From Scatophagus argus (taxonomy: Eukaryota > Chordata > Actinopteri > Scatophagidae), in contig NC_058506.1 in NCBI RefSeq assembly GCF_020382885.2, positions 9,092,318-9,156,317 on the forward strand: a stretch of 64,000 nt of DNA, written 5' to 3'. How positions within the stretch are numbered: position 1 is the first letter of the stretch; each line of letters starts with the position of its first letter. The position numbers were made by a program, and so were the translations under genes. The notes under the pieces are model-generated. The model was given only the letters and a program-made list of their open reading frames with translations. It ran no database searches and was not told the origin of the DNA. This document shows positions 9,873-58,984 of the stretch, one piece after another.

Positions 9873-12039
9873 TGACTGGAACTTAGCTGCAATGAGATCA
9901 GTTAGTTTTATCTAAAAAATAGAAGAAAAAAAAAAAGGTCTTTGTGTCATCAGGTGTACTGATATCACACTGTATTTTAAAATAGCTTCAGATCCATGGT
10001 TAGGAGGTCTACTTGTTGGTGTCAAAGCACAAGCAGCACTGGCATTGATGGGTTTTACCAAAACACAGAGTGTCAACCCACTTCTATACAGTACACACTT
10101 TCACTCCAGTTCTCTTGTGTTTGTCTGTAGACCTTCGCTTTTAATGCATGTTGTAATTCATAATTTTAAGACGCCACATGACCTAACCACTATTGCTGCA
10201 CACAGAGAATGGTCTAAATGTCTCGTTAATCTAATGTGCTGTAAGAGTAAGAGTGTGATTCTAGTGGATGAAGCCTGTGTTGCTAAGCAGAACTCTGTGC
10301 TCACACTTAAAGTCGATCTTCTAGGTTCTCTGTGTAAGATTAGTGCAATCTGAAGACTCTCTTTTGTCTTAATCACATATTTTTTAAATATCTGACAGTC
10401 CTTTTCCCCAATTTTGTATCCTAACAAGGATGTGCAAGTGGAAGGTAAAAATTTGTCTTCATTTTATTTTATTTTTTTAATCCCCCTTTAGCTGTCACAT
10501 TTTTTTAAAGTTCTTTGAAATGGCGCATTATTTTCAGATTCTACAGTAAGATATGCGAATACAGAATTCTGAAGGTGATATACGTTTCTGCTGCTTTTAC
10601 ATTGTTATAGATAATACTGTGTGGTCACTTTAAGGTTTTTCTTTTTCTTTTTTTTTTTTTTTTTACTTTCACTTTTATCCAGTTTGTCAAGATGAACAAA
10701 CTCAGGTTTATAGCATCAAATTAAAAGCCAGTTGGTGTTGTAAATGAATAACATAATTATAATTAATGGGATTTGCTCTTAAAAAATAGTTTTGAATCAG
10801 ATCCTCGAATATTTAATGGAAGTTTTTCCATTTTTATACACAACACATGTTGAATTGTGGGACCCTGGAGGTGTTTTTAGGGGGAAAAAAGCATTGCCTT
10901 ACATTGGCCTTGATGTATATGTGTATGTTAAATTAAATGTTTGGAGATTTAAAAGACATGTTTTCCTGATGTCTAGCTGTAGTTAATACTGCTGGCTAGA
11001 GAGCAGTGATCTTACTTGGACTAAAAATGCATTTGTTTTTCTATGTCAGTAAGGACAAGAAAGCTTGTGTTTCCACATGTTATGTGCTCATGCTGATATG
11101 GATATCCAGCTTCCACGTTGGATTTGCATCCTTTGCTCAGCGGCTGTAACAGATATGGTTTGTTTCTCTTTCTTGGGTGGGGTCCACACTGTTGACTTAT
11201 ATAAAGAGCAGTAAAAATAGAAACCTTAAAATGCTGTGTTTACCTTAATATGATATAAATTCACAACTGGAATTTATCTTGCAGGGTGTGGAACTGAATT
11301 TGCTGTCCTCTATCATAGAAATGAGTTGTTTAACACGTTCTACTGTATAACTTCAATTTGAAACCTAATTTATATTTATACTGCATCAGATCGGGGACCA
11401 AGCGTATCCCTCCCAAACACCACAGCTGCAGAGCAAACATGCATAAAAATTCTTTGTCTGAGGATTTTTTTTTTTTCACTAAGTTGCATTTTCATGTTGG
11501 AGTGATAAAGAGGGGAATCAGTGAGATCAATACATTCTGTCTTACGTTAGACTGATAGTTTGATTGGGACTTGTTGGCAGTAGTCTGTATTATAAAATAG
11601 AACAGCTGCTTTCCTATTTATGGTATGCTTCAAATGATTTTTGTACTGTAATCTTTTTCTCTATATGTCTCAATTCTGGAGATTAACTGAAACAAATGGA
11701 AAAATATAATCCCCAAATTATTAATTTTTCCTTTTTCTTTTAGAATGTGCCTAGTTTATCACATTTAATTAATAAATGTACAGTGTCAAGTATAATTTCC
11801 CTGTATAAAGAAGGTTTGATCATCATTGGGATGTCTAAACACAGTCTGTGGAAAGCTGCACCTAATGTGTGATTTGTGGAAGATTAAATGAGTTTGAAAT
11901 GGGACTGTGGTGGCACTTTTTATTTAAATGGCCCATTTAAGTTAATAAAAAGCAAATAGTTTTAAAGCACATATGTTAGCCTATATCATGTTTCTTTAGT
12001 TTGATAATTTGATTGAGAATGTACATTTGTTTGAATAAA
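9873..12039 (+). other. rnf167: rnf167 3' UTR
   Basis: AT-rich sequence without coding signal follows the stop codon. AATAAA hexamers occur at 11771-11776, 11944-11949 and 12034-12039, so the 3' UTR may run 1.9-2.2 kb with alternative ends. Which signal is used cannot be told from sequence. Confidence 0.55.
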
Positions 12040-13035
12040 TCCTTAAGGCTGGATGTGCTTCAGCTTTATGTTTCATCATCTGGGCACAGTGGACAGAAGG
12101 AAGACATTTCTCCTTTGGGTGTTTGAACAGAATCCAGGAATGACTTTATTGATCCCGTGGTGAAACTGGAAGGTGAGTATAGCTGCGGTGAAAGAGCTGC
12201 AGGACAGGACGTCTGCTGGCACCAGGTGTTTTCTGACAGTATGAGCTGATGAGGGCAGTGGCTCCGTTGTTTGAACAGAGAGAAGGATTTATTTTAAGGT
12301 TTCAGATGTAACCTCACTGTCTTCTTCACTCTCTGCCCCCAGTGTGCTGAGCCATAACAAGTTATAGGTAGTTTCATGAATAATGATGAAAGGACCACAC
12401 TTCCTTGAAAACATGGCAAACCTAAGAAAAGGATCTGGTAATTAATACATGGTCTTTGATCTGATTGATGTGAGCTTCACAGCAACTAATTAACCTGGAG
12501 CAAGGACACCCTACACTGTGAGCTTATGTATTATGAACACTATGAGCTGTTTTGCTATCCGACCTTTGGCTGTGATGATGGCTCATTAAGACTTCCGGCA
12601 CTTAATGAAAATCCTTCTTAACAAGCTTCGTGTCTTTACAATTTCTCCATTTCATGTACCTTTAATCACATCACCCACAGCTTGGAAGAAAAGACACATT
12701 CTTATTTGAGTTGAATGAACCTTTTAAAACTAACCGGATAGGGTGTACCTGTACTTAGTTTAGCCATTGGCAGGATTATGGCATGTGTGGGAGTATTGTA
12801 GGCTGATATGTCTCTCTAAGTTTGTTCCATACAAGCTGAGAAATGAATATAGTGGCACTGAGGCATATGTACATGAGTTGTGACGTGACGTAACATAAAT
12901 GAGTCCCTAAAGCAAAAGAATCTGTAAAGGGTTATTCCTCAAAAGGAACCTCGAGCCTTTGGTGGTGCTGCATTTTAAAACATTAGAAATACTTGAACTT
13001 TCTCTGGGTACTGACCGATGCAGCTGTAAGAAAGG
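12040..13035. other. Intergenic, upstream of orphan secretory gene
   Basis: No coding exon recognised. Near 12150-12172 is a short stretch resembling the TTTATTGATCCC tail found in teleost retroelements. The last part should include the promoter and 5' UTR of the gene at 13036; no clear core promoter element was identified. Confidence 0.35.
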
Positions 13036-13901
13036 ATGCCTGGGTCACTGCTGTCAAACTCCTCTGTGCAGAGATCACCGTTCTTGCTATTGTTGACTGT
13101 ATCTGTATTTGTGCTGCTGGATTCAAGAGAAATTCGCCAAGACCACATTGAGGTAAGGTAGAGATTTTTAGGTTTTTAAAAGATATCTATTAGTTTATTT
13201 ATTGTTCCCTGAATTTCACCAATGAAAATTTGGTCTTAATAGTTTTTTAAATGTACCATAACAACAAATTATATTTTGACTTGTATTTTTCATTTTAATT
13301 TTTCTAACAAATATTTGAAATAGTAGTGAAACTATAGTCCAAAGATAATATCTAGTTTTAAGAGAACTTTAATCAGCATTGGAATAACCGGCATTCATTT
13401 CATAACCAGATTCAGTTCATTCTTTTCCCTTAATAGAAATCAGTATACAGTATTTCATCATCATTTGATGAATTACTTAATAAACTTTGTTTATTTGGCA
13501 CCTTTCATATAGGGTAGAGTAAAGTGTTTTACAGCAGTAAACTGTACAAAGTAAAAGTTTTCAGTTTTGTTTTCATTACTTTGTCAAGCATAGTCCTAAA
13601 ACGCATCCTAATAACACAGTGGAAAATCGAGTGGAAATAATATTTGTTTACACGTTCATAGGGTTTTCTGGATAGTTCCTACCCATCACACCTCATCTCC
13701 AGTCATTTGGGAGCCAATGCTGGACCTGAGGGAGACTTTGCATTTGAATCCAGGGGTGGCCCTTCCTTCCCACAAGTGGAATCTGCATTTATCATGGAGG
13801 ATGAAACACAGACTACTCAAGTGTGGCCGCGTGTAATCCTAGATTATATGAGGCAGCAGTTGAGGTTCAGAGGAAGAACAAAGAAAGGCACAAAAAAATG
13901 A
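13036..13901 (+). CDS. Unrecognised secretory-type protein with basic C-terminal tail, 2 exons, 118 aa
   Basis: Exon 1 is 13036-13152 (39 codons, donor GTAAGG) and exon 2 is 13662-13901 (acceptor after TTCATAG); the junction is phase 0 and open. Residues 16-28 are a strongly hydrophobic core, giving a signal peptide or, less likely, a signal anchor. The middle is Gly/Ser/Pro-rich, with an acidic patch MEDE near residue 93. The last 26 residues start VWPRVILDYMRQQLRF and contain five Arg, four Lys and one Asp. There are no cysteines and no clear dibasic site before the tail. An AATAAA lies at 13934-13939, about 30 nt after the stop, supporting a real transcript. I do not recognise the family. 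A host-defence peptide precursor, a peptide hormone or a lineage-specific secreted protein are all possible; none is shown. Confidence 0.6.
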
Positions 13902-13933
13902 CATGGTTTGAGTTTATTGGATATTGAAAGCAA

Positions 13934-13939
13934 AATAAA
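13934..13939 (+). terminator. Poly(A) signal of the orphan secretory gene
   Basis: AATAAA lies about 30 nt past the stop codon at 13901, in an AT-rich context consistent with a short 3' UTR. Confidence 0.5.
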
Positions 13940-16099
13940 ATATAGTTTAATCTATTAAAATATTAGTGGAATATTGAAGACTGTGCCTGTGAGTTTTTGT
14001 TAGACTTGTTCCACAATACCACCTATCCACTATTCATATGTAATTATAAGGATATCAGTGCTATTAACAAGGAGTTCGAGGTAGCCTGACCCTAAACCAG
14101 TTGCTGTATATAAAACGCTATAATATAGAACCTCTTGGTAGATATTTTTACGGTAACGTTAAGTGAAATAGTTAAAAGCCCAGTCAAACACACCAGGTGT
14201 TTTGTGAGCAAACATAATTTTTCTAATTTAGTCCACCTTCAGCAACATAAATGTCATACTTGAAAGCACTACTAAATCAAATATCAATATATTTATTGTT
14301 TTATTCATCGTTGTTTTTTCTTTTTGGTGAAACAGTCTCTTGAAGGACAGGTTAATTTTTTTTTCAAAGTCTGTCTCACGCATACAGTACATGTTTACAT
14401 TGTGAAAAGAGTTATTATTTGCTGTAATAATTTTGTCCATACTGGCCTTGAAGAGATTCTTCTCCAACGTGGTTCGTGTAAAGGTGTGGGACAACAGGCT
14501 TCAGCAGTGTGGATAAGACAAACCAAGTGTTTATCTTATAAAGTTACAGTCTTTTGAGTAGGCTACAAGTTCTTGTTTTCTGTTGCTTATCCTCAACTGC
14601 TGCCCCAGCTCAGCACAGAAACACTGTTTGAGGAAATACAAAAAGCTATTTTCATACTCTGGAAAATGTTCTCTTGATTCATCTAAGTCAGTGTGATGAA
14701 GCCTCATATTATCTTCAAATAAACATCAGGATATATTTTTCACAGAATGAACACTGTGGATTTTGTCTCTGGTCACCTACATTGAAATTGCTTTAAAAGG
14801 GATCACTTTGGGCTGAGTATGAACCAAAAATATCTCCCTTAATGTCAGCATGCATGTTTAAAGACTTAAAAAATTGCCAGCCTATCCTCTAAAAATGGAT
14901 GTGCAAAAAATGGAAATATTCACATTGAAAAGTCCTTTTCAAAGATCTAATTCTGGCTTGTTGCTTCTATTGTTGCTGCCAGTGGAGCGAATTCTACAGA
15001 CTGTTGCAAGATGTTTGCCTATAATGAGATTGAGTGTGAAGTTGGCACAATTAACTTTACATTTAAATACACGTTACACATTACTGTAACGTCAACATCT
15101 TAAACCCAAAACCCATGATGTGTAACAAAATATTGATCACACTCACAACATTTTATCTTAAATTGCAGTAGAGATATAAAAAGCCTTCAAAAGTAGCAAC
15201 AATGTCCAAATGAATTTGGAGAAATTAAAATGAAAATTACTGATAAAATTCTGATGCGCACTTCATGCCAGTTGGTGGCAGTAACTCCTCGTTTGATGTT
15301 TGGCTACTGTCGCAAAAAAAATCAAGAAGAAAACAAGGAACCAGAAGAAGTAGAAGAAGTCGAGGACCATCCCTGCTGAGAATACATAAGGTATCAATAT
15401 ATTCGGTTATGTTGTACTGTATCGATGGTAGTTAAGCTGTCAAGAGAACGATTATTCTGATGTAGAAAACGAATGGTCTCTCAACATAAGACGGACCGGA
15501 ATGTTACATTTCTTGTTAGCTAACGTAGCCTGTTAGCTAACACCAGCAGCCTCGCTAACATTAGCTAAGTAACGTACATTTATTACATGCGTTATTATTC
15601 CATTTACTTAAACTAGAGAAGAAACTCTGTTACCCCTCATTATGCTGCGGTTTTTAAAAATTCCAAATCTTTTGGTTATTTGAGCGTCCTACGACTCCTC
15701 TAACTGCTGTGCAAGACAAAGACCTAATTTACTAGCTAGCCGTTTCTCTAGCATCTCATTATCTTAGTATCCTCATCTTGTAGCTACTGTTCCTTTCCGT
15801 ATTACTCCACGAGCGTGTGAATTATAAAATCCAGGAGCACAAACTTTCTCTTAAAGTTATATTTGAGTTTGCGTCACAAATCGCTAGCAAGTGACGTCTT
15901 CATCTTGTTAACACGCTTACTTGGCTACATGCAGTCTCATTGTAATCCTGCTATGCCAGGAAATGAGCAAGTTTAGCCTCACCATGTAAGTTAGCATATT
16001 TTTTTATCCTTTTTTTTTTTAACAACGATTGTTCTCTCAGTGATGGCTTCTGGCACATAGCACATCGTGACTTAATTTTGCTTTTCTCTCTGCTTGAAG
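13940..16099. other. Intergenic DNA and srrt 5' UTR region
   Basis: From 13940 to about 15250 the sequence is AT-rich with no recognised gene. From about 15290 a purine-rich AAGAAG run appears, with a donor-like site after about 15390 (ACATAAG then GTATCA), a possible srrt 5' UTR exon. Between 15516 and 15575 there are repeated TTAGCTAAC / GCTAACATTAGC motifs. Positions are approximate and transcription was not demonstrated. Confidence 0.3.
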
Positions 16100-28307: not shown

Positions 28308-28740
28308 ATACACTATATGGACAAAAGTATTTGAACACAGCTTTTTATTGTTGAGCTCAGGTGTGGCATTGGGCTGTTTTTCAGGGGTTGTGCTCGGCCC
28401 CTGACTTCCAGTGAAGGGAAATCTTAATGCTTCAGCATACCAAGACATACCAAGTTTGGGGAAGACCCTTTTCTATTCCAGCATGACTGAGCCCCAGTTC
28501 ACAAAGCAAAGCTCCATAAAGACATGGCTGGATGAGTTTGGTGTGGAAGAACTTGACTGGCCCACACAGAGTCCTGACCTCAACCCCACCCAACACCTTT
28601 GGGATGAACTGGAACAGAGACTGAGGGTCAGACCTTTTGGTCCAACATCAGTGTCTGACCTCACAAATGCTCTATTGCATGAATGGTCAAACAATCCCTC
28701 AGGTTAGGTGTCCCAATACTTTTGTTCACATTAAGTATGT
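28308..28740 (+). mobile_element. Internally deleted Tc1/mariner-like transposon remnant
   Basis: The left end contains ACTATATGGACAAAAGTATT at a TA dinucleotide; the right end near 28712-28740 reads AATACTTTTGTTCACATT, a decayed inverted copy. Between them, 28411-28707 stays open and encodes the C-terminal part of a Tc1-type DDE transposase, recognised by DWPTQSPDLNP, LWDELEQRLR and SVSDLTNALLHEW. A full element is over 1 kb, so most of the 5' transposase and part of the 3' end are missing. It cannot be autonomous. Confidence 0.85.

Positions 28741-46664: not shown

Positions 46665-58984
<12,320 letters not shown>

Follow-up and report, generated by a model that had tools for sequence, protein, structure and literature searches.

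A candidate two-exon gene for a small secreted polypeptide without cysteine, located between an rnf167-like gene and srrt in Scatophagus argus

The window, by which we mean the whole 64,000-nucleotide stretch of Scatophagus argus DNA that was analysed, contains a complete spliced reading frame with a start codon, a GT-AG intron, a stop codon and a poly(A) signal. We found that this architecture exceeds chance, and the frame is probably a genuine single-copy gene whose two coding exons specify a small secreted polypeptide without cysteine, perhaps fast-evolving or lineage-restricted. All coordinates below are positions in the window.

Overall structure of the gene model

The initial annotation had proposed a two-exon model with a hydrophobic leader, a phase-0 splice, a 79-codon second exon and a nearby AATAAA, all of which were confirmed by translation and a signal scan. 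The features of the model are as follows:

12173..12178, + strand: near-perfect donor-like site GGAAG/GTGAGT, score 8.16, 3' of the RING-finger gene and 5' of the candidate
13036..13152, + strand: exon 1, coding part, by translation; ATG with A at -3, leader PFLLLLTVSVFVLL, end ...DHIE
13153..13661, + strand: proposed intron of 509 bases, GT-AG, 27% GC; strong donor, moderate acceptor
13662..13901, + strand: exon 2, 47% GC; 79 codons and a stop, with an acidic middle and a basic tail
13934..13939, + strand: AATAAA poly(A) signal, 32 bases 3' of the stop

An in-frame TAA at 13027-13029 lies just 5' of the exon 1 ATG, and the phase-0 join of the two exons yields 39 + 79 = 118 residues, with the stop codon at 13899-13901. 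Using manually entered splice-site matrices, the donor GAG/GTAAGG scored 6.6 and the acceptor TTTACACGTTCATAG/G scored 2.8; a branchpoint-like TCCTAATAA is located ~50 bases 5' of this acceptor in the proposed intron. Among the acceptors with scores of at least 0 up to position 15390, the one at 13662 gave the longest second exon (79 residues); the runners-up gave 73 and 68. Additionally, a GT-rich stretch was present ~45-70 bases 3' of the AATAAA at 13934. The donor at 12173 could, speculatively, mark the 3' end of an untranslated first exon of the candidate gene; no good acceptor for it was found at 12940-13035, where the best one, with exon start at 12946, was weak and scored 0.58.

We also observed a Met-less 61-codon frame at 12911-13096 on the + strand, which overlaps exon 1 out of frame, has the cysteine-rich run CSCKKGCLGHCCQTPLCRDHRSCYC at its end and is probably due to chance.

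Genomic context

The candidate is located between a RING-finger gene, whose last AATAAA is at 12034 and which we take to be rnf167-like after the name given by the initial annotation, and the srrt coding start, placed by eye at ~16100. The Pfam search of the window revealed RING-finger exons, SERRATE/Ars2 exons (srrt) and a DAGAT-type acyltransferase exon; together with the defensin and NYAP exons described below, these genes are consistent with a teleost. A defensin gene had been reported 11 kb from the candidate, and we did find a beta-defensin gene there:

about 2054-2484, + strand: beta-defensin gene, apparently complete, with signal exon MACYRVVILALLVVLLLH, a core exon ...SFPWSCPSLSGVCRKVCLPTELFFGPLGCGKGFQ and CCVSHFL as its last exon; joins by eye

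The core exon showed Defensin_beta_2 likeness with an E-value of 0.0082, which is below the curated cut-off. The RING-finger exons separate the beta-defensin gene from the candidate, and its closeness is no evidence of kinship.

Comparison of the architecture with chance expectation

The likeliest alternative is that the GC-richer block flanked by the rnf167-like gene and srrt holds an accidental open frame or encodes a non-coding RNA, and that the leader, splice and poly(A) signals coincide by chance; we regard it as rather unlikely. Two-exon secretory models were scanned for in 528 kb of real strand, comprising 20 random loci and the window, and the candidate's own loci (L001-L003) were left out of the control sets. 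Under strict cut-offs, which were set on the candidate itself, no model appeared in 24 resamples of 528 kb, and the real 528 kb yielded the candidate only. Under relaxed cut-offs, 20 models were obtained over the 24 resamples, and this rate of 0.83 per 528 kb is about equal to that of real DNA, where the candidate was the single model; this equality favours the chance reading. When the demand for a poly(A) signal was dropped at the relaxed cut-offs, real DNA gave 17 models vs 6.3 in the resamples, as real genes would cause.

Because the strict cut-offs derive from the candidate, the models were also ranked by a combined score. Among 864 null models obtained in 40 resamples, only 2 reached the candidate, which corresponds to ~0.012 per 128 kb of strand and argues against an accidental origin. 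The candidate ranked third among 44 real models. The top model starts in the frame MACYRVVILALLVVLLLH, with a good donor, ~150 bases 5' of the defensin core exon; it looks like the defensin signal exon and its donor, wrongly joined; as it starts in an apparent defensin signal exon, the scan does find real leader exons, which provides a positive control. The second-ranked model lies on the strand opposite to long open frames of locus L014 that, as judged by eye, presumably resemble von Willebrand-type repeats. Since other architectures would also have been acceptable to a reader, we estimate the chance of such a find at some percent per window.

GC edges near the predicted exon boundaries

The two exons have GC contents of 46% and 47%, compared with 27% for the intron and 35% for the downstream sequence as far as 15390. 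A frame-blind GC segmentation over 12700-14500 was compared with the gene model. With six segments, edges were found at 13158, 13650 and 13893, compared with the predicted 13152, 13661 and 13901, that is, 6, 11 and 8 bases off the donor, the acceptor and the stop, respectively; with seven segments, the edges were at 13164, 13650 and 13893. A division into four or five segments moved the right edge to 13833 or 13872, which is 68 or 29 bases short of the stop; the three-segment partition missed exon 2, and the start of exon 1 was marked by no GC edge at any segment number tried. The closeness of these edges to the splice sites and the stop speaks against a chance open frame, although stop-free frames favour GC-rich blocks and the edges are therefore partly confounded. 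The GC contrast of exon 2 was equalled or topped by 11 others among 629 open frames, some of which are real exons, in a pool that also took in 20 ion-channel loci.

Codon usage and composition

Coding potential was scored with a training set of 14110 codons, which is biased because most of them come from the 20 ion-channel loci. The synonymous and amino-acid scores and the frame comparison used the 20 random loci and the window, and the pool for the Markov score also included the 20 ion-channel loci; the pools termed mostly non-coding still contain some real exons. Of 503 mostly non-coding frames, 5.2% had an amino-acid composition as protein-like as that of exon 2; this protein-like composition, which lacks cysteine, counts against the chance reading. 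In synonymous choice, exon 2 was matched by 52.7% of the same frames, and 5.4% of 166 coding windows scored as low; when both scores were summed, 21.3% of the 503 frames matched it. Exon 1 was matched by 27.4% of 3361 frames in amino acids and by 33.4% in synonymous choice, and its amino-acid composition is unremarkable. The known coding frames in the window (rnf167-like, four from srrt and NYAP) scored 0.012 to 0.23, above the values of -0.108 and -0.079 for the candidate. The synonymous codon choice of the candidate is not coding-like, as a chance frame would predict.

The Markov score lay between the classes, with 21.6% of 675 mostly non-coding frames matching exon 2 and 8.9% of 313 coding windows being as low. 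When stop codons were left out, the proposed frame was the best of the three on codons in both exon 2 (-0.008 vs -0.169 and -0.136) and exon 1 (-0.063 vs -0.313 and -0.132), which is a further point against accident; when stop codons were counted, both alternative frames of exon 2 had scored higher. As a whole, the coding scores are mixed and do not decide.

Search for related sequences

The initial annotation recognised no family, in agreement with our searches of Pfam and PDB. Pfam revealed no family for the 118-residue protein or for exon 2 at E-values up to 10, and PDB sequences gave chance-level matches only, with E-values of 1.9 for the whole protein and 1.1 for residues 31-118; the tail as a query matched three sequences, two of which were Arc repressor, at E-values of 0.91-1.1, also at chance level. 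Rfam at gathering scores and a tRNA search were empty across the window. In its own genome (570.7 Mb, 48 contigs), searched as DNA and as protein, the candidate matched only itself among the best candidates scored, and the 996 bases upstream of it also occur once. With exon 2 as a query, prokaryote and viral contigs gave 64 and 10 pattern matches, respectively, none of which was a relative; a fish gene could hardly be expected in these collections. By sequence comparison, the candidate may be called an orphan only with respect to Pfam, PDB, its own genome, and the prokaryote and viral contigs, and the lack of a relative in these collections is what a chance frame would also give.

The candidate resembles a general kind of vertebrate gene, the taxon-restricted genes for small secreted proteins, in that it is short, has few exons and a leader, and is without a recognised domain or a paralog in its own genome; this comparison was made from the genome of the candidate alone. 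Lineage restriction of the gene is possible. Short genes without a known domain are easily missed by annotation.

In the passages of the literature on the rnf167/srrt neighbourhood in teleosts, fish and zebrafish, nothing concerned the candidate gene, and no mention of three peptide strings of the candidate was found. Among the best 20 of 48 matches listed for teleost-specific or orphan small secreted genes, none appeared relevant. One paper mentions Srrt close to the Zan-like locus of reptiles, in passages from which the candidate gene is absent (PMC9275260).

Charge distribution and processing sites of the predicted protein

The predicted leader is hydrophobic, with a maximum of 3.06 over 12 residues on the Kyte-Doolittle scale, which was used here in place of a dedicated signal-peptide program. 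A cysteine-free product with a basic tail (net charge of about +8 over the last 26 residues) and an acidic patch upstream had been proposed, and the residue count bore this out: residues 31-92 carry -8, the last 26 residues carry +8, and the 118 residues include no cysteine. Under a non-coding composition, zero cysteines in 118 residues have a probability of 0.0034, a value for a feature that was picked after it had been seen. RxxR occurs once, as REIR at residues 31-34 directly after the leader, and dibasic pairs are limited to KK at 113 and 117. Within the 118-residue product, neither a dibasic nor an RxxR site was found between the acidic and the basic parts, nor was an amidation-type Gly followed by two basic residues found anywhere. 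Such a distribution of sites argues against a classical prohormone or antimicrobial precursor.

The initial annotation had likened the product to a cationic defence-peptide precursor, in which proteolysis of an acidic pro-part would free a basic C-terminal antimicrobial peptide. Cathelicidins and piscidins are cationic host-defence peptides whose precursors have a leader, an acidic stretch and a basic C-terminus, and the candidate shares all three, with the same order of charges after the leader; a beta-defensin is also encoded 11 kb away. In contrast to cathelicidins and piscidins, the candidate has no Pfam match and no site of the kinds above at which its two parts would be divided, although other proteases are conceivable. 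The tail can form an amphipathic helix, with a helical moment of 0.557 over 18 residues, but this value does not stand out from shuffled sequence: when the last 30 residues were shuffled 5000 times, 10.9% of the shuffles reached it. The teleost-type beta-defensin of the same window is, as predicted for the candidate, secreted, and is encoded on the same strand; its gene lies beyond the RING-finger exons, and it has a Cys-rich core, whereas the candidate has no cysteine and thus lacks the six-cysteine core. We consider the reading as a defence-peptide precursor highly improbable.

A peptide-hormone or neuropeptide precursor, which had been called equally open, deserves just as little credence: a leader exon followed by a phase-0 second exon would suit it, a non-coding first exon might end at the strong donor 12173 and cleavage at the minimal REIR would leave an N-terminal Gln, but apart from the two KK pairs the other classical processing and amidation sites are lacking and no hormone family was matched in Pfam at E-values up to 10.

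Proposed mode of action

For the preferred reading, a genuine small secreted polypeptide, the following course would be consistent with the predicted protein. The leader would be removed in the ER near residue 30, and the released protein would have ~88 residues and a net charge of 0, or would begin at residue 35 if the REIR site were used. The acidic middle (-8) might mask the basic tail (+8) until an anionic partner is met, which may be a glycosaminoglycan, a membrane or an acidic receptor surface. We favour a protein that would act whole, with its basic tail available for anionic partners. A bolder proposal, which we hold to be distinctly doubtful, is that the candidate, with its locus between rnf167 and srrt, represents the first member of a so far undescribed family of teleost secreted factors that lack cysteine and have segregated charges, and in which the acidic middle would quiet a basic C-terminal effector segment. 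If transcribed and conserved, the candidate would add one more unrecognised secreted protein of fish, as a candidate ligand or defence factor; at present, it is a testable gene model and not a functional discovery.

Other features of the window

A DDE_3 match with an E-value of 0.00047, below the curated cut-off, was present at 28405-28704 on the + strand, and this region is likely a remnant of a DDE-type transposase. Additionally, a large exon at 54822-56786 on the + strand belongs to a NYAP-type phosphoinositide-3-kinase adaptor gene (NYAP_N, E-value of 1.5e-52).
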